Origin: an uncultured Hyphomicrobiales bacterium
GTDB lineage: Bacteria; Pseudomonadota; Alphaproteobacteria; Rhizobiales; Aestuariivirgaceae
Assembly (NCBI GenBank): GCA_903951595.1
Contig: CAJBCQ010000178.1
Span: 1-36,096 of the forward strand
DNA length: 36,096 nt
Reading direction: 5' to 3'
The position numbers and the translations under genes are program-made. The notes below the pieces were generated by a model. That model did no database searches, was not told the DNA's origin, and saw only the letters and a list, made by a program, of their open reading frames with translations. Shown in pieces: positions 1 through 30,564 of this stretch (the stretch's first letter is position 1; each line of letters begins with the position of its first letter).

Positions 1-1632
1 CGCGATCAGGAATTTTCTAGCGATTTACGCTCGCGCGGTGTGAAGCGCATTCAGGATGTGCGGACCCTTCGCATGCAGCAATTTCCCGAAGATGGCGGGC
101 CGCTGTCGCACCCCGTGCGGCCTTCGACCTATGTGGAGATCAATAATTTCTATACAGCGACCATTTATGAAAAGGGCGCTGAGCTTGTGCGGATGATGAA
201 AACGCTGATGGGGGATGAAGCTTTCCGCGCAGGCATGGATTTGTACTTTGATCGGCATGATGGGCAGGCCTGCACGATGGAGGATTTCGTGGCCTGCATG
301 GCGCAGGCTTCGGGGCGCAATTTTGGTCCGTTCTTTCGCTGGTACAATCAAGCTGGAACGCCAGAACTGATTGCCGAGACACGTTATGAGCGGGCAGCGG
401 GCGTGTTTGAATTGACCCTCACCCAGCACCAGCCGCGGCGTGAGGCAGAGGCGGAGAAATTGCCGCTGCATATGCCGATTGCACTGGGGCTGGTGGGGCC
501 GAATGGGGCGGATTTGCCGTTGCATCTGGAAGGACATGGCCCCCTTTCGCGACCCGTGATTGAGTTGCAGGAGCGCACCCAGCGTTTCCGCTTTACCAAT
601 ATTGGGGCTGAGCCTGTGTTGTCGCTCAACCGAGGTTTTTCGGCACCCGTGAAGGTGAGCATGGCGGCAAAGTCTGCGGATGGCTTGTTTCTGATGCGCC
701 ATGATGCCGACAGCTTCAACCGCTGGGAAGCGGGCCAGCGTTTGGGGCGGGAATTGATATTTGCGGCCATCACGGGTGAGACTTCCGGGCTTTCCTCTTA
801 TGCCACCGCGCTGAATGAGGCGGTGATGGATGAGGGGCTGGAGCCTGGGTTCCGCGCGCTTCTGCTGCAACTTCCATCCGCGACGGATCTTGCCGGAGAG
901 CTGGGGCAGAATGTGGACCCTAGCCTCATGCATGAAGCGCGCGAGATGGTGCGGGCGGGATTGGGCGCGCGCATGATGGCGGGGCTTTCGCGATTGGCTG
1001 ACATGCGCCTGGACGATGAATATGCGCCAGACCCGCGCCAATCCGGAATGCGGGCTTTGCGCTATGCGGCCTTGGGGTTGATTTCGGCCGCCGAGCCTTC
1101 GCGCGGGGCACAGATGGCGCTGGCGGCATTGCGTTCGGCTTCGAATATGACGGATGAAATGGGGGCCATGAATGTGCTGGCCTTGATGGATGTGCCCGAG
1201 CGCAGGCTGGCGCTGGATGAATTCCATGCGCGTCATCGCACTGACCATCTGCTCATCGATAAATGGCTGGCTTTGGAAGCCATGGGGCCGTTTTTTGCCA
1301 CGGTGGGTGCTGTTGAAAAGCTGCTGCTGCATGCCGATTTCAAGCTCACCACCCCCAACAAAGTGCGCGCACTTATCGGCACTTTCGCAAGCCTGAACCC
1401 TGTGGCGTTCAATGCGCCGGGGGGCGAAGGTTACCGGCTGGTGGCGGATGTGATTTTGCGGCTGGATGCGATCAACCCGCAGGTGGCGGCAAGGCTGTGT
1501 GGCAGTTTCCGCAGTTTCCGCCTGCTGGAACCGGGGCGGCGGGCAAGGGCGGAGGCCGCATTGGGCCAAATTCTCGCGCATCCGGGCCTTTCACGCGATA
1601 CCCAGGAGATTGCCGCGCGCAGTCTTGGTTAA
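1..1632 (+). CDS. pepN: aminopeptidase N (M1 family), C-terminal part; 5' end outside window
   Basis: Open from the first base of the window (frame 1) to TAA at 1630-1632, about 543 codons; the start and the zinc motifs HExxH...E lie upstream. The first ~70 residues match the end of the M1 catalytic domain in PepN: a QFPEDGGPLSHPVRP stretch, then NNFYTATIYEKGAE, whose tyrosine corresponds to the transition-state tyrosine of E. coli PepN. The rest fits the DUF3458 Ig-like domain and the C-terminal ARM-repeat domain of the PepN subclass. The enzyme is a cytoplasmic zinc exopeptidase that removes N-terminal residues from peptides. It is a housekeeping gene at the left border of the polysaccharide locus. 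Its stop codon lies inside the first half of a CtrA-like box. A 518-codon antisense frame over it is a high-GC shadow. Confidence 0.93.
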   Translation, partial: RDQEFSSDLRSRGVKRIQDVRTLRMQQFPEDGGPLSHPVRPSTYVEINNFYTATIYEKGAELVRMMKTLMGDEAFRAGMDLYFDRHDGQACTMEDFVACMAQASGRNFGPFFRWYNQAGTPELIAETRYERAAGVFELTLTQHQPRREAEAEKLPLHMPIALGLVGPNGADLPLHLEGHGPLSRPVIELQERTQRFRFTNIGAEPVLSLNRGFSAPVKVSMAAKSADGLFLMRHDADSFNRWEAGQRLGRELIFAAITGETSGLSSYATALNEAVMDEGLEPGFRALLLQLPSATDLAGELGQNVDPSLMHEAREMVRAGLGARMMAGLSRLADMRLDDEYAPDPRQSGMRALRYAALGLISAAEPSRGAQMALAALRSASNMTDEMGAMNVLALMDVPERRLALDEFHARHRTDHLLIDKWLALEAMGPFFATVGAVEKLLLHADFKLTTPNKVRALIGTFASLNPVAFNAPGGEGYRLVADVILRLDAINPQVAARLCGSFRSFRLLEPGRRARAEAALGQILAHPGLSRDTQEIAARSLG

Positions 1633-1645
1633 CCTCTCATTAACC
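1629..1645 (+). promoter_or_regulatory. CtrA-like box TTAA-N7-TTAACC upstream of the sugar transferase
   Basis: TTAACCTCTCATTAACC at 1629-1645 is a perfect match to the alphaproteobacterial CtrA consensus TTAA-N7-TTAA(C), and the second half reads TTAACCAT, the rhizobial form. It starts 57 bases before the ATG at 1686, in the only gap between pepN and the polysaccharide operon. A GANTC site (GACTC, 1657-1661) lies just downstream in a possible -10 region (TAGACT, 1655-1660). The first TTAA overlaps the pepN stop codon, so half of the match could be coincidental. Binding is inferred, not shown. Confidence 0.5.
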
Positions 1646-1685
1646 ATGCCAACGTAGACTCTCGGTTGAATTTACCGGAGCGTGC

Positions 1686-2336
1686 ATGTCTTACGTTGTA
1701 TTTTCGCCTGTAGAAGTCGTCCAACCGGCAAGGGCGGTTCCGGGTATTCCCGCCCTGTTGCAGCGCGGACTGGAAAAGATCCTCGCGCTTGTCCTGCTTA
1801 TGGTGGCAAGCCCGGTGATAGTGGCGGCAGCCATTGCGATCCGCTTGGACACGGCTGGGCCAGTGTTGTTCCGGCAAGAACGGCATGGCCTTGGCGGGCG
1901 CATTATCCGCATTTACAAATTCCGCACCATGCGCGTGGTCGAGCCCGGATCTAGCGCGCAGCAGGCGGTGCCGGGGGATGCGCGTGTGACGCGGGTGGGG
2001 CGTTTTCTGCGTGCGAGCAGCATTGATGAGCTGCCACAGCTTTTGAATGTGCTGACTGGTGACATGGCGCTGGTGGGCCCGCGCCCGCACCCCATCATGC
2101 TCGACAAACAATTCAGCCCCCTCATCGCCGGCTATATGGCGCGTTATGGCGTGAGGCCGGGCATTACGGGGCTTGCGCAGGTGAAGGGCCATCGCGGCCC
2201 CACACCGGATGTGGAAACCATGCGCCAGCGCGTGGCGGCGGATGTGGAATATGCACGGCGCAAGAGCCTGGCGCTGGATGCGTGGATTTTGGCGCGCACG
2301 GTGCCTGCGGTGCTAGGGGCCAAGAATGCGCTTTGA
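1686..2336 (+). CDS. polyprenyl-phosphate sugar-1-phosphate transferase (initiating transferase)
   Basis: The 216-residue product belongs to the bacterial sugar transferase family (PF02397; ExoY/WcaJ/HfsE-like). It would transfer a sugar-1-phosphate from a nucleotide sugar to undecaprenyl phosphate at the inner membrane, the first step of a lipid-linked repeat unit. Seen in the sequence: one hydrophobic segment at about residues 32-52, a YKFRTM motif near 77-82, the catalytic Asp-Glu pair in [13 protein letters not shown] (D114, E115), and the GPRP signature near 131-134. The length fits the short single-segment class without the CoA-binding-like N-terminal domain. The ATG at 1686 follows GGAG at 1677-1680. 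It is the first gene of the plus-strand arm, preceded by a CtrA-like box, and overlaps the next gene by 11 bases. Sugar specificity cannot be read from the sequence. Confidence 0.92.
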
Positions 2337-3081
2337 GGTTCTGGGCCTGCCAGTAGACGCCTTGAGTGCAGATGAAATCAGCTCCTGCATTCTGCACAGC
2401 GTTAAAACTGACGCCCGAATTACCTTAGCGCATATCAATCTGCATGGGCTTTATTGCGCCCTTCGATCCGCGCCTATGCGTGCGCTTTATCAAGCATCCG
2501 AAACGCGCGTCTATATTGATGGCATGCCTTTTGTCTGGCTCGGCAAGCTATTCGGGCATCAAGTCACACGAAGCCACCGCAACACAAGTGTCGATTTTCT
2601 TCCCCCGATTCTGAAAATTTTTGCAGCCCAAAAATGGCCTGTGGCATTTGTTGGCGCTGCACCTGAACATGTTGCATCAAACCGAGACGCCTTGCGGCGT
2701 TTGGCACCGGGGCTTGATGTGGAATGTTTCCATGGTCATTTCGATATGGCCGATCATGGCCCCACTAGCCATCAGGCATTGATATTGCAAAGGCTTGCAG
2801 CGGTGCGACCCAAGCTTTTGTTGGTGGGCATGGGCATGCCGTTGCAAGAGGCGTGGATTGAACAAATTCGCGCGTCGGTGGATGTTCCCGTCATTATGCC
2901 CTTGGGTGGATTTATAGACTACTTCACGCATCGCGTTGCCATGCCACCGCGCCAATTTGGGCGTTGGGGCCTGGAAGGCCTGTGGCGGTTGGCGCATGAT
3001 CCGAAGCGGTTGGCGTTTCGCTATTGCGTAGAACCAGTTTACATCATCAGAGCCCTATTGCGGCGCGGCAGAGCCACATGA
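2326..3081 (+). CDS. WecG/TagA/CpsF family glycosyltransferase (GT26)
   Basis: The 251-residue product is of the WecG/TagA/CpsF family. These enzymes usually add the second sugar to an undecaprenyl-diphosphate-linked sugar on the cytoplasmic face, and HfsJ of the Caulobacter holdfast pathway belongs here. Seen: a substrate-binding YIDGMPFVW motif near residues 63-71, VGMGMPLQEAW near 167-177 (the family's GxPxQE region), and a C-terminal RWGLEGLWRL motif typical of the family, followed by a basic amphipathic tail. The ATG at 2326 has AGGGG about 8 bases upstream and lies inside the end of the sugar transferase gene, so the two are translationally coupled. The stop overlaps the next start as ATGA (3078-3081). 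Confidence 0.9.
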   Translation: MRFEVLGLPVDALSADEISSCILHSVKTDARITLAHINLHGLYCALRSAPMRALYQASETRVYIDGMPFVWLGKLFGHQVTRSHRNTSVDFLPPILKIFAAQKWPVAFVGAAPEHVASNRDALRRLAPGLDVECFHGHFDMADHGPTSHQALILQRLAAVRPKLLLVGMGMPLQEAWIEQIRASVDVPVIMPLGGFIDYFTHRVAMPPRQFGRWGLEGLWRLAHDPKRLAFRYCVEPVYIIRALLRRGRAT

Positions 3082-3878
3082 AGTTCCTCTTCTTGGCCAC
3101 AAATCAGGTCGGCCGTGGGCGAATGAACGAGTTATTGCGGCTAATCAAATCTATTAAACAGCAAGATAACAAAGACCACACAATCGCACTGCATGTATTG
3201 CTGCAGGGCACTGCAACCACTCCCGTAGAATTGTCTGAATTTACAAATGTTAACTTCTACCCGAACCCGGAATTCGTAGGTCTTAGCAAGGCAAGAAATC
3301 TACTGCTAGAACGGATAGAAATTGCTGAGGATGACCTGATACTATTTCCGGATGATGATTGTTGGTATCCTGCGCAGTTCATCTCATGTATTGCCTCACT
3401 TATCAGAGAAAAAAAGCCTGACCTTGCGGTTTGGCGTTTCTCCATCAAGGCGCAAGTCCCATCAGAGCTGCGATTCACTAGGATGAGCGGTGCGCAAGCG
3501 CTCAGAACCGCTTGCTCGATAGCCTTTGTCATCCGCGGAGCCATACTCAACCGCATTGGACCATTCGACGAAAACCTTGGACTGGGAACCGAGATCGGTG
3601 GTGGCGAAGATACCGATTATGCTTTCCGCGCATTCAGCGTGGCAGGCTGCTCTTTGGTCAGCGAGCATGAACTAGTCTTCCATCGGAGCATTAAAGACAG
3701 CATAGAAGAGCGATCAAAATACTGGAAGGCGAACATGTATCTGGCGATTAGGTACTTTGGCCCAGCCATCTTCGCGCTAACACTATATAGGTTGTTTGGC
3801 GGTTTATTCCTTTTACTTCGCGGCCACATAGACCTTTCAACTTTTATCCAGCCGTTCAGGACGGCTGCTCGAGGATGA
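3078..3878 (+). CDS. GT2-type glycosyltransferase
   Basis: The 266-residue product has a GT-A (family 2) fold. Seen: a hydrophobic beta-strand start (KFLFLAT), the metal-binding acidic motif FPDDDCWY with DDD at about 92-94, and a later GGGEDTDYAFR motif holding the likely catalytic acidic residues. It probably adds one sugar of the repeat unit in the cytoplasm; donor and acceptor are unknown. I start it at the ATG at 3078, which overlaps the upstream stop as ATGA. An earlier in-frame ATG at 3024 would add 18 residues unlike the family and overlap the previous gene by 58 bases. The gene is clearly AT-richer than the flanks (a hand count of 3241-3300 gives 25 of 60 G+C) and uses ata/aga/agg codons, suggesting transfer. 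It overlaps the next gene by 4 bases. Confidence 0.85.
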   Translation: MKFLFLATNQVGRGRMNELLRLIKSIKQQDNKDHTIALHVLLQGTATTPVELSEFTNVNFYPNPEFVGLSKARNLLLERIEIAEDDLILFPDDDCWYPAQFISCIASLIREKKPDLAVWRFSIKAQVPSELRFTRMSGAQALRTACSIAFVIRGAILNRIGPFDENLGLGTEIGGGEDTDYAFRAFSVAGCSLVSEHELVFHRSIKDSIEERSKYWKANMYLAIRYFGPAIFALTLYRLFGGLFLLLRGHIDLSTFIQPFRTAARG

Positions 3879-4720
3879 TCTCCGTTGTCATACCAAGCTA
3901 CCGAGCGCGAGATCTATGCATCCGTGCTGTTAAATCAGCACTGGACCAGACATTCGCTGACTTGGAAGTGATTGTTGTTGAGGACGGCAGCCACGCGTTG
4001 GGTCTTGAAGACTTTCCCCCTGATCCACGAGTACGATTTTTCCAGCTACAGGAAAACATGGGTGGGGCGCGCGCTCGCAACTTTGGTGTTCAAAATGCTC
4101 AAGGCAATCTGATTGCTTTCCTTGATGCAGATGATTGGTGGACGCCAACAAAACTCGAAGAACAACTAAGGATAATTAGAACCATACCGCCGTCCGAGAA
4201 AGACTGGTTAATCTACAACCAAGTCAACTTCTCATCAAAATGGTTCCCAATTCGGCCTATCGACGAAACTGACGACCTTACAACATTTTTGATTTATGAA
4301 CGCAATTACATACAAACAAGCGGATTTCTGATGCCACGACGAACAGCACTGCGCTTCCCATTCGATGAGAGCCTGCGGCGACATCAGGATTTTGATCTCT
4401 TGATAGACCTACGTTCTGCATCCGTACCATTCATCATGTGTGATGCGAAAACTGTATTTTACGGTGAAGATGACGGGCGATGGCGAGTTGGAAGCGTAAA
4501 AGAAATACAGGCTACGCTTCATTGGATCAGCAAGAGGCAAGAAGAAATTTCTCGCGCGGCCCTTGCTGACCTGTATGCTTTTCATTTGGGACGAGCGCTG
4601 ATCACGAGCCATCCATTTGTTGCGGCAAATTATCTGTTATTGGCTGTTCGTATTTTTCCTCCCATTTTCATCAGGCTGGTTCAGAGAACTGTGGCCAAAA
4701 CCATCTCTAGGCAGACTTAG
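3875..4720 (+). CDS. GT2 family glycosyltransferase
   Basis: The 281-residue product is a classical family 2 glycosyltransferase. The N-terminus SVVIPSYRARD is the nucleotide-binding strand, VVEDGS near 34-39 matches the usual VDDGS motif, GGARARNFG near 63-71 is typical, and FLDADDWW carries the DxD metal-binding residues (D84, D86, D87). It probably transfers a sugar to the lipid-linked repeat unit. It is translationally coupled to the preceding transferase (ATGA at 3875-3878) and is the last gene of the plus-strand arm. It ends convergently against the next transferase with a 4-base overlap (4717-4720). Base composition is low in G+C (27 of 60 in 4141-4200), as in its neighbours of the cassette. 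Donor sugar unknown. Confidence 0.9.
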   Translation: MISVVIPSYRARDLCIRAVKSALDQTFADLEVIVVEDGSHALGLEDFPPDPRVRFFQLQENMGGARARNFGVQNAQGNLIAFLDADDWWTPTKLEEQLRIIRTIPPSEKDWLIYNQVNFSSKWFPIRPIDETDDLTTFLIYERNYIQTSGFLMPRRTALRFPFDESLRRHQDFDLLIDLRSASVPFIMCDAKTVFYGEDDGRWRVGSVKEIQATLHWISKRQEEISRAALADLYAFHLGRALITSHPFVAANYLLLAVRIFPPIFIRLVQRTVAKTISRQT

Positions 4721-15486: not shown

Positions 15487-17772
15487 GTGGCGAAAACACA
15501 GCTAGGTGAGTTGTTTTTCAAGGAGCGCGCGCTGCATTTGGCGCTGGCGCCGCGCAATTTGGCGCGCATTACCATTTCCGAAAAGGGCCTTCGCAATCTC
15601 ATCACGGTTTTGATTGCGCTTTTCCTGCTCACGCTTGGGGCTGCCCTGCTGCTTCAGCTCATGATGTCGCGCAATTCCCATATTGATGACCATAACCGCG
15701 TGACGCTTTTGCAGGGCGAGCTGACGGCGCTGCGCCTGCGCGACAAGCTGACGGAGGGCACGAGCGACCCCGTGGGCAAGCTTCTGGGGGTGGCTGCCGG
15801 GCCTGAAGCGGGCAAGGCTGGGCGGCTGATGGCGCTGGCGGATGAAAAGGGCACGCTGCTGGCCACCCTTCCGGCAGTGGAAAATCTCAATGGCAAGACG
15901 CTGACCGACTTCATCCGGGCCGCCGACCTTCTGACCATTCTTGCGGATACCGGTGGCATGCGCGCGGTCACTTTGGCTGACGGGCGGGAGGCTTACGCCT
16001 TCACCGAGAGCCTTGCTCCGCACAAATACAGGCTCGTCATCATCCAGCCGCGCAGCGACCTTCTGATGACATGGCGGCAGGACATGGCGCAGATCACCAC
16101 ACTGTTCACCGTGACGCTGGCGGTATTGGTGCTGCTGGGAGCGGCCTTTCATTGGCAAGCCTCACGCGCTTCCGAAGCCGACCGCACCTTGGCGATGGCC
16201 ACGGACCGGCTGGATACGGCACTGGATCGCGGGCGTTGCGGCTTGTGGGATTGGGATGTGGCGCGCGGCCAGATCTTCTGGTCCAAATCCATGCATGAAA
16301 TGCTGGGCTTGCCGGCACGCGGCAATTTCCTTTCCTATGGCGAATTGGCTGACCGGTTGCATCCAGATGATGCGCCGCTCGATGTGATGGTGGAGCGGCT
16401 GCTGGCGCAGGGCCACGGGGCCATTGATTGCGAATTCCGCATGCGCCATGCCGATCAAAGCTGGGTGTGGTTGCGCGCGCGCGCTGAGCTTACCCCGGCA
16501 GCGGGTGAGGATGCACCGCATCTGGTTGGCATTGCCATCGACATCACCGACCAGAAGCTTGCCACCCGTGCCAATCAAGAAGCCGAATTGCGGCTGAAGG
16601 ATGCGATTGAAAATATCTCGGAAGCCTTCGTGCTTTGGGATACTGAAAACCGGCTGGTGATGTGCAATTCGAAGTATCAGCAATTCCATAATTTGCCGCC
16701 CCATATGTGCCTGCCAGGCACGGCTTATGAGGAAGTCGCCAAGCTTGCCAAGGAACCAGTGGTGCGCCAGCGCGTGCCCTTGGCGCAAGGCGAAGGTGAA
16801 GGCCAGACATTCGAGGTGCAGCTTGGCGATTCCCGTTGGCTGCAAATCAACGAACGGCGCACCAAGGATGGTGGGTTTGTGTCGGTCGGCACCGACATTA
16901 CGCCCCTGAAGCAACATGAAGAACGCCTGCTGCTTTCCGAGCGTGAGCTGATGAATACGGTGCGCGATTTGCAGAAATCGCGCATGACGCTGGAACAGCA
17001 ATCGCAGCGGCTGGCGGATTTGGCCGAGAAATATTCACGCGAAAAGACGCGCGCGGAAGCTGCCAACCGATCCAAATCCGAATTCCTCGCCAATATGAGC
17101 CATGAGCTGAGAACGCCGCTGAATGCCATTATCGGTTTTTCCGAAGTGATGGAGCAGCAGATTTTTGGCAAGCTCGGCTCAACAAAATATAATGAATATG
17201 CCAGTGACATTCATCGCTCCGGGCAATATCTGCTCGATGTGATCAGCGATATTCTGGATATGTCGAAGATCGAAGCTGGCCGCGTGGCGTTGGAAATCAA
17301 GCCGGTGAATATTGCCGCCGTGGTGGAGGATGCGCTTCGCATCATCAGCCCACGGGCAGCGGAAGGCCGCGTGGCGATCGTGCGGCGTTTGCCTGCCCAT
17401 GTGAACGCGCAAGCCGATGGCCGCGCCATCAAGCAAGTGCTGATCAACCTTTTGGCCAATGCCGTGAAATTCACGCCGGAAGGCGGCAAGGTAACCGTGT
17501 CGCTTCTGGAGAAAGCCCAGAGTGTGACCATCACCATCGCCGACACGGGCATCGGCATCCCCAAGCGCGACATGCACAAGCTGGGCCGACCCTTTGAGCA
17601 GGTGGAAAACCAGTTCACCAAGACCAAGAGCGGTTCAGGCCTGGGGCTGGCAATTTCTAAGTCCCTCATCGAATTGCATGATGGTCAGGTGCTGATCGAC
17701 AGCATCGAAGGCAAGGGCACCACGGTCAGCGTGAAACTGCCCAAGCAGGCAAAGGCGCAGGCAGCGGCCTGA
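15487..17772 (+). CDS. pleC: PAS-containing sensor histidine kinase of the PleC/DivJ type
   Basis: 761 residues from GTG 15487 (GGGAAG about 11 bases upstream). Seen: membrane segment at about 38-60, a periplasmic region to ~200, a second segment at about 203-222, a PAS domain from ~245 (CGLWDWDVARG), a second PAS from ~370 (AFVLWDTENRLVMCNSKY), a short coiled coil, a HisKA domain with His539 in NMSHELRTPL, and an ATPase domain with the N box (LLANAVKF), DTGIGIP and SGSGLGLAIS. The kinase core (SDILDMSKIEAGR) resembles PleC/DivJ, which act on DivK/PleD and thereby on CtrA and cell polarity. Rhizobial pleC is, as I recall, near glnE as here. The exact orthology (PleC versus another DivK-acting kinase) is not certain. 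No receiver domain is attached. Confidence 0.8.
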   Translation: MAKTQLGELFFKERALHLALAPRNLARITISEKGLRNLITVLIALFLLTLGAALLLQLMMSRNSHIDDHNRVTLLQGELTALRLRDKLTEGTSDPVGKLLGVAAGPEAGKAGRLMALADEKGTLLATLPAVENLNGKTLTDFIRAADLLTILADTGGMRAVTLADGREAYAFTESLAPHKYRLVIIQPRSDLLMTWRQDMAQITTLFTVTLAVLVLLGAAFHWQASRASEADRTLAMATDRLDTALDRGRCGLWDWDVARGQIFWSKSMHEMLGLPARGNFLSYGELADRLHPDDAPLDVMVERLLAQGHGAIDCEFRMRHADQSWVWLRARAELTPAAGEDAPHLVGIAIDITDQKLATRANQEAELRLKDAIENISEAFVLWDTENRLVMCNSKYQQFHNLPPHMCLPGTAYEEVAKLAKEPVVRQRVPLAQGEGEGQTFEVQLGDSRWLQINERRTKDGGFVSVGTDITPLKQHEERLLLSERELMNTVRDLQKSRMTLEQQSQRLADLAEKYSREKTRAEAANRSKSEFLANMSHELRTPLNAIIGFSEVMEQQIFGKLGSTKYNEYASDIHRSGQYLLDVISDILDMSKIEAGRVALEIKPVNIAAVVEDALRIISPRAAEGRVAIVRRLPAHVNAQADGRAIKQVLINLLANAVKFTPEGGKVTVSLLEKAQSVTITIADTGIGIPKRDMHKLGRPFEQVENQFTKTKSGSGLGLAISKSLIELHDGQVLIDSIEGKGTTVSVKLPKQAKAQAAA

Positions 17773-30466: not shown

Positions 30467-30564
30467 GAGCCTATGTAGGGCCGCCAAGGGGGTTAAATCA
30501 ATTCACGCCTTTGCCGGGGCGCGGCGGCTCGGTGTCGCAGTTACCCTAGGGGGGGTCGCAAAAA

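Follow-up and report, generated by a model that had tools for sequence, protein, structure and literature searches.

Between an aminopeptidase gene and a set of glycosyltransferase genes of an uncultured Hyphomicrobiales bacterium lies a short gap, and the question that it raises is whether the CtrA-type box found there belongs to a true CtrA-dependent promoter, which genes such a promoter could serve, and whether the CcrM methylation site next to the box has any part in it. In this report, the box was examined in the window (by which we mean the whole stretch of 36,096 nucleotides that was analyzed), in the rest of its genome and in related genomes.

The site in the intergenic gap

The initial annotation had described a perfect match to TTAA-N7-TTAACC followed by a CcrM site, and the sequence of the window confirms it: TTAACCTCTCATTAACC at 1629-1645 matches exactly, and exactly 11 bases separate it from GACTC at 1657-1661. 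The gap between pepN and the sugar transferase gene is 53 bases long (1633-1685), and the first half-site does reach into the pepN stop codon, as had been pointed out; TAA occupies 1630-1632, so that 3 bases are common to the stop codon and the first TTAA. The box resembles an inverted repeat, GGTTAA-N7-TTAACC from 1627, and matches on both strands. TTAA-N7-TTAA occurs only once in the window, at this position (mean of 0.09 in shuffled sequences), and the box lies upstream of the start codon, 40 bases from the ATG at 1686. The features of the gap are as follows:

1629-1645, plus strand: CtrA-type box TTAACCTCTCATTAACC (sequence, genome-wide counts, family long form, identical 17-mer in relatives)
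1655-1660, plus strand: possible -10 element TAGACT, overlapping GACTC (suggested by the geometry of Caulobacter boxes)
1657-1661, no strand assigned: GACTC, a CcrM (GANTC) methylation site (sequence; similar offset in relatives)
1678-1681, plus strand: ribosome-binding site GGAG, 4 bases before the ATG at 1686 (sequence)

A consensus scan of 1500-1800 gave no ordinary sigma-70 promoter, and TAGACT was the only recognizable -10 element in the gap. No terminator was found in the gap, and the search for a structured RNA returned no Rfam match.

Genes behind the box

The box stands at the end of pepN and is followed by four plus-strand genes with overlapping ends:

1-1632, plus strand: pepN, aminopeptidase N, 5' end outside the window (Pfam Peptidase_M1, DUF3458, DUF3458_C)
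1686-2336, plus strand: initiating sugar-phosphate transferase, short form of 216 aa (Pfam Bac_transf, 1.2e-58)
2326-3081, plus strand: WecG/TagA/CpsF glycosyltransferase (the family of Caulobacter HfsJ), overlapping the preceding gene (PF03808, 6.3e-38)
3024-3878, plus strand: glycosyltransferase family 2 (PF00535, 8.3e-06)
3875-4720, plus strand: glycosyltransferase family 2, last plus-strand gene of the operon, abutting an opposite-strand gene (PF00535, 4.2e-25)

The sugar transferase matches the NCBIfam WcaJ/EPS transferase models below their cut-off, and it does not qualify as an HfsE-type initiating transferase (211.6 bits on the HfsE model against a cut-off of 750). The WecG/TagA/CpsF product scores 83.4 bits on TIGR00696, above the cut-off of 69. 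The gene annotated from 3024 may have its true start after 3081. Polymerase, flippase and chain-length/kinase genes come next, on the opposite strand, and the box can therefore drive only the four plus-strand genes; control of the whole polysaccharide cluster from this site is not supported, given the orientation of the flippase, polymerase and chain-length genes. We consider it unlikely that the polymer is a holdfast or polar adhesin, the kind of product with which the initial annotation had compared it.

Rarity and location of the box in the genome

The initial annotation had left chance open as an origin of the box, and had proposed its background rate and its location relative to genes as a check. 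In the assembly that contains the window (2,717,859 bases in 264 contigs), TTAA-N7-TTAACC is present at 8 distinct sites, where a first-order Markov model predicts about 1.0, divided into 0.47 between genes and 0.53 within them. These correspond to nine strand matches, as the window site is nearly an inverted repeat and is read twice. All 8 are intergenic or meet the end of a gene, so that 8 sites stand against the 0.47 expected between genes. In a 953-kb sample of the genome, the coding fraction was 89.6% according to a simple codon-usage gene caller; in the same sample TTAACCAT was intergenic in 11 of its 13 occurrences, compared to 10.6% for the reversed hexamer CCAATT.

Spacings from 0 to 25 were compared in contigs of the same genome picked by number only, contigs that had been chosen partly for their matches being left out; N7 with TTAAC was the highest, with small numbers (6 matches). 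TTAA-N21-TTAACC was also raised, with 4 matches in a 1.05 Mb sample, and may reflect a repeat element or another way of arranging the half-sites. Elsewhere in the window, a GGTTAA half-site is found at 30491-30496, just upstream of a minus-strand ccmI-like gene, in the intergenic stretch that precedes the sarcosine oxidase genes.

A longer form of the box in the family

Among 48 genomes of the same family, the N7 spacing gave 434 matches (221 for the reversed control) and the N8 spacing 95 (283 for the reversed control), with N7 more frequent than N8 in 45 of the 48. The spacers are not random: among the matches listed, 57% have C directly after the first TTAA, and the last four spacer bases are most often CTCA. 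The long form built on this preference, TTAACNNCTCATTAACC, was matched 26 times, in 20 of the 69 family genomes searched, and its reversed pattern not once. Because TTAACNNCTCATTAACC was derived from listed matches that overlap the 69 genomes, the 26 are in part the data that suggested it, and they are not independent of one another, most belonging to a few orthologous promoters (those of a receiver-domain gene and of a polysaccharide-deacetylase gene). The zero of the reversed control and the fit of the window still hold, the window having contributed nothing to the matches from which the long form was drawn.

The spacer of the window box fits TTAACNNCTCATTAACC, and the box is counted among the 26. 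In its own genome, 0.0008 occurrences of the long form are expected and one is found, the window site; in two relatives (loci L292 and L295) there is a 17-mer identical to the window box. With this fit, and given the rarity of the box in the genome, chance is now an unlikely origin for it. Judged against the open papers, both the long motif and its instance in the window appear to be new.

Promoters that carry the box

In nine relatives, the long form of the box is followed 12 to 13 bases later by GA[CG]TC, in front of a gene whose product is a receiver-domain protein about 121 aa long (loci L280, L281, L282, L283, L286, L291, L293, L295 and L298). The copy of this gene in the genome of the window (L009, C240:6452) is preceded by a slightly different box, TTAACCTCCGATTAACC, with GACTC 12 bases on. 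The protein consists of the single domain, often without the usual phospho-acceptor aspartate, and by description only it is reminiscent of Osp, which inhibits CckA in Rhodobacter (PMC9430884).

The long form TTAACNNCTCATTAACC also stands before a divergent polysaccharide deacetylase gene in seven loci (L279, L285, L287, L288, L297, L299 and L300), four of which were read (L279, L285, L287 and L300), with PF04748 confirmed in L279. In the genome of the window, the box further precedes ftsK (L007, C179:1040), the Caulobacter counterpart of which is a CtrA-motif target (PMC4287350), and a gene for an rmlB-like dTDP-glucose dehydratase (L001, C6:18788), a second sugar gene that may be under the same control. 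The form of the window site is thus common to promoters of unlike genes, as is expected of a regulator's site.

Another promoter form that recurs, with TTAACC-N5-TTAAG and then GACTC, was seen around position 1500 of L310, L316 and L317. The gene behind it encodes a small, conserved protein (ALRYILEAWEEA...DGLDPD) that had no Pfam match in the one copy scanned.

Conservation of the gene pair

Aligning the pepN-transferase gap across relatives had been suggested at the outset. No relative searched has pepN adjoining the sugar transferase gene: each is present in most relatives, never adjacent to the other, and the nearest pairs are 17-19 kb apart (G011, G021). As the gene pair is found in no relative, the comparison of the gap is empty rather than negative; it is at other promoters that the box is conserved. 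Within the family, identity to the nearest sugar transferases reaches only about 50%. Among about 110 loci in other genera, one full box was found before a sugar transferase gene, 180 bases upstream of a gene for a 226-aa enzyme in Agrobacterium vitis (L086), and as a parallel to the window site this is only a hint.

Cell-cycle regulators and a nearby histidine kinase

The genome encodes the proteins that the site calls for. CtrA is found on C70, with its end on C169; it shares 87% of its residues with Caulobacter CtrA, and the two agree in the region of the DNA-binding helix. CcrM, on C166, has 61% identity to its Caulobacter counterpart. In the half of the genome that was sampled, the GcrA N-terminus was 83% and DivK 78% identical. 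With matches as strong as these, small errors in the Caulobacter query sequences would be immaterial. The region upstream of ccrM contains CATTAACCAT and four GANTC sites, and that upstream of ctrA contains TTAACC and four GANTC sites. In a genome with genes for CtrA, CcrM, GcrA and DivK, the proposal of a CtrA-type box in promoter position, close to a CcrM site, is supported.

The initial annotation also drew attention to a kinase gene downstream, which it called PleC-like and which, if the box is real, it expected to act on the same pathway:

15487-17772, plus strand: histidine kinase of 761 aa with PAS_3, PAS_7, HisKA and HATPase domains and two membrane segments (Pfam, membrane-segment prediction)

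The description holds for the architecture, with a periplasmic domain between the two membrane segments, a PAS region and a kinase core of the DivJ/PleC type. As PleC it is at most a candidate: with the DivJ model as the measure, the protein is the best match of the genome but far below the cut-off (224.6 bits against 1000), and a second kinase on C14 follows closely with 213.7 bits. Its sequence would place the kinase in the vicinity of DivJ, PleC and PdhS; that it acts on the promoter is speculation and serves as a lead only.

Likeness to known promoters

Several characterized promoters resemble the window site. Full CtrA boxes of Caulobacter have their 5' base near -35 and belong to promoters that fire in predivisional cells (PMC4287350), and CtrA ChIP-seq in Hyphomonas gave the motif TTAA-N7-TTAAC, with 211 of 222 sites between genes (PMC7200025). 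The half-sites, their spacing, the position between genes and the placement upstream of a start codon are the same here; the difference is the preference of the present family for a CTCA spacer end (TTAACNNCTCATTAACC), which comes from counts, not from binding.

Two precedents concern surface polysaccharides. In Caulobacter, CtrA directly activates hfsJ, the gene for a holdfast glycosyltransferase from the family to which the second gene of the operon belongs (PMC3900383); in both cases a CtrA-type box precedes a WecG/TagA/CpsF gene, which is second in the operon here. The hfsJ box is degenerate (cttaGCGGGATttaa) and was established by ChIP and reporter, whereas ours is a prediction. In Agrobacterium tumefaciens, also an alphaproteobacterium, putative CtrA sites lie before the succinoglycan exopolysaccharide genes (PMC7003649), although polysaccharide and organism differ and the evidence there consists of the motif and of expression in a pdhS2 mutant. 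The two precedents make a CtrA reading of the window site plausible, but do not thereby make the polymer a holdfast.

Finally, there are cell-cycle promoters of the GcrA/CcrM kind with GANTC between -35 and -10 (PMC4287350, PMC7987155), an arrangement that in Caulobacter goes with earlier activation (PMC4287350). The window likewise has a CcrM site by the predicted core promoter, next to the CtrA box, but this site may overlap the -10 element rather than sit between the two elements.

A model for the promoter and its alternatives

We put at about 0.75 the probability that the CtrA site is real and that it belongs to a putative activating promoter of the four-gene glycosyltransferase operon. 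From the evidence above we infer CtrA binding, the direction of its effect, the start of transcription, the effect of methylation and the timing. CtrA would occupy the two TTAA half-sites of a box placed near -35, TAGACT (1655-1660) could serve as the -10 element, and activated transcription would start at about 1665-1668, giving a leader of some 20 bases with the ribosome-binding site intact. GACTC would lie on or next to the -10 element and could through its methylation state, via GcrA or directly, adjust firing after the replication fork has passed. Production of the initiating transferase and of the three glycosyltransferases encoded behind it would then fall mainly in cells with active CtrA (predivisional cells in Caulobacter). 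Timing of the operon by the cell cycle is, in our estimate, an even bet, and the odds that GANTC is functional lie slightly under that.

The alternative that fares best, at odds lower again by a little, is that the CtrA box is real and GACTC is there by chance, without a role, the operon being simply CtrA-dependent. A GANTC site would occur by chance in about 10% of gaps of this size. When TTAACC followed at 10-14 bases by GANTC was counted across the family, the number did not exceed that of the reversed control (CCAATT, which in the one genome measured is itself commoner than TTAACC), and GANTC is therefore not a demonstrated general partner of CtrA half-sites in the family; several relatives have long-box promoters with no GANTC at such a distance. 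Against this, the 11 bases found here differ little from the 12-13 at the receiver-domain promoters of nine relatives and of the same genome, and the chance of a GANTC at 11-13 bases from the box is only about 0.7%.

It is a good deal less probable that CtrA represses here, with transcription starting further upstream or close behind the box and CtrA covering the -10 element or blocking RNA polymerase, which would shut the operon down in cells with active CtrA. The start at this locus is deduced rather than mapped, Caulobacter CtrA sites placed over -10 do repress (PMC4287350), and mutation of a CtrA motif derepressed dgcB in Agrobacterium (PMC7003649). Yet full TTAA-N7-TTAA boxes in Caulobacter are mostly near -35 and activating (PMC4287350), and a start at 1665-1668 agrees with the distances from the box to the ribosome-binding site and to the start codon. 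This reading and that of a GANTC without role both retain the CtrA site, so that their probabilities overlap with that of the activating promoter. Least probable of all is a coincidence in which the pepN stop codon supplied one TTAA and an unrelated TTAACC fell at the right distance, expression coming from another promoter or from pepN read-through: half of the box overlaps the stop codon, which fixes three bases, the gap is not conserved in relatives and about one such match is expected in this genome, but the excess of boxes between genes, a fit to the long form, of which only 0.0008 are expected in it, and the lack of a sigma-70-type alternative in 1500-1800 speak against it.

Beyond the activating CtrA promoter itself, a bolder proposal, which we regard as doubtful, would be a composite promoter of the family, used by CtrA and CcrM together, in which TTAACNNCTCATTAACC is followed 11-13 bases on by GA[CG]TC, at -10, and which has captured a polysaccharide operon, so that the first sugar-loading step would be timed by CtrA and by the replication fork.

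Switches of this kind are already known, and the present site adds an instance. A longer, family-specific CtrA motif would permit sharper prediction of the regulon, and the arrangement of a box with a methylation site can be tested with reporters. If the model is true, the first steps of surface-polysaccharide synthesis in this bacterium would be timed by the cell-cycle clock, as for the Caulobacter holdfast, with another gene order.
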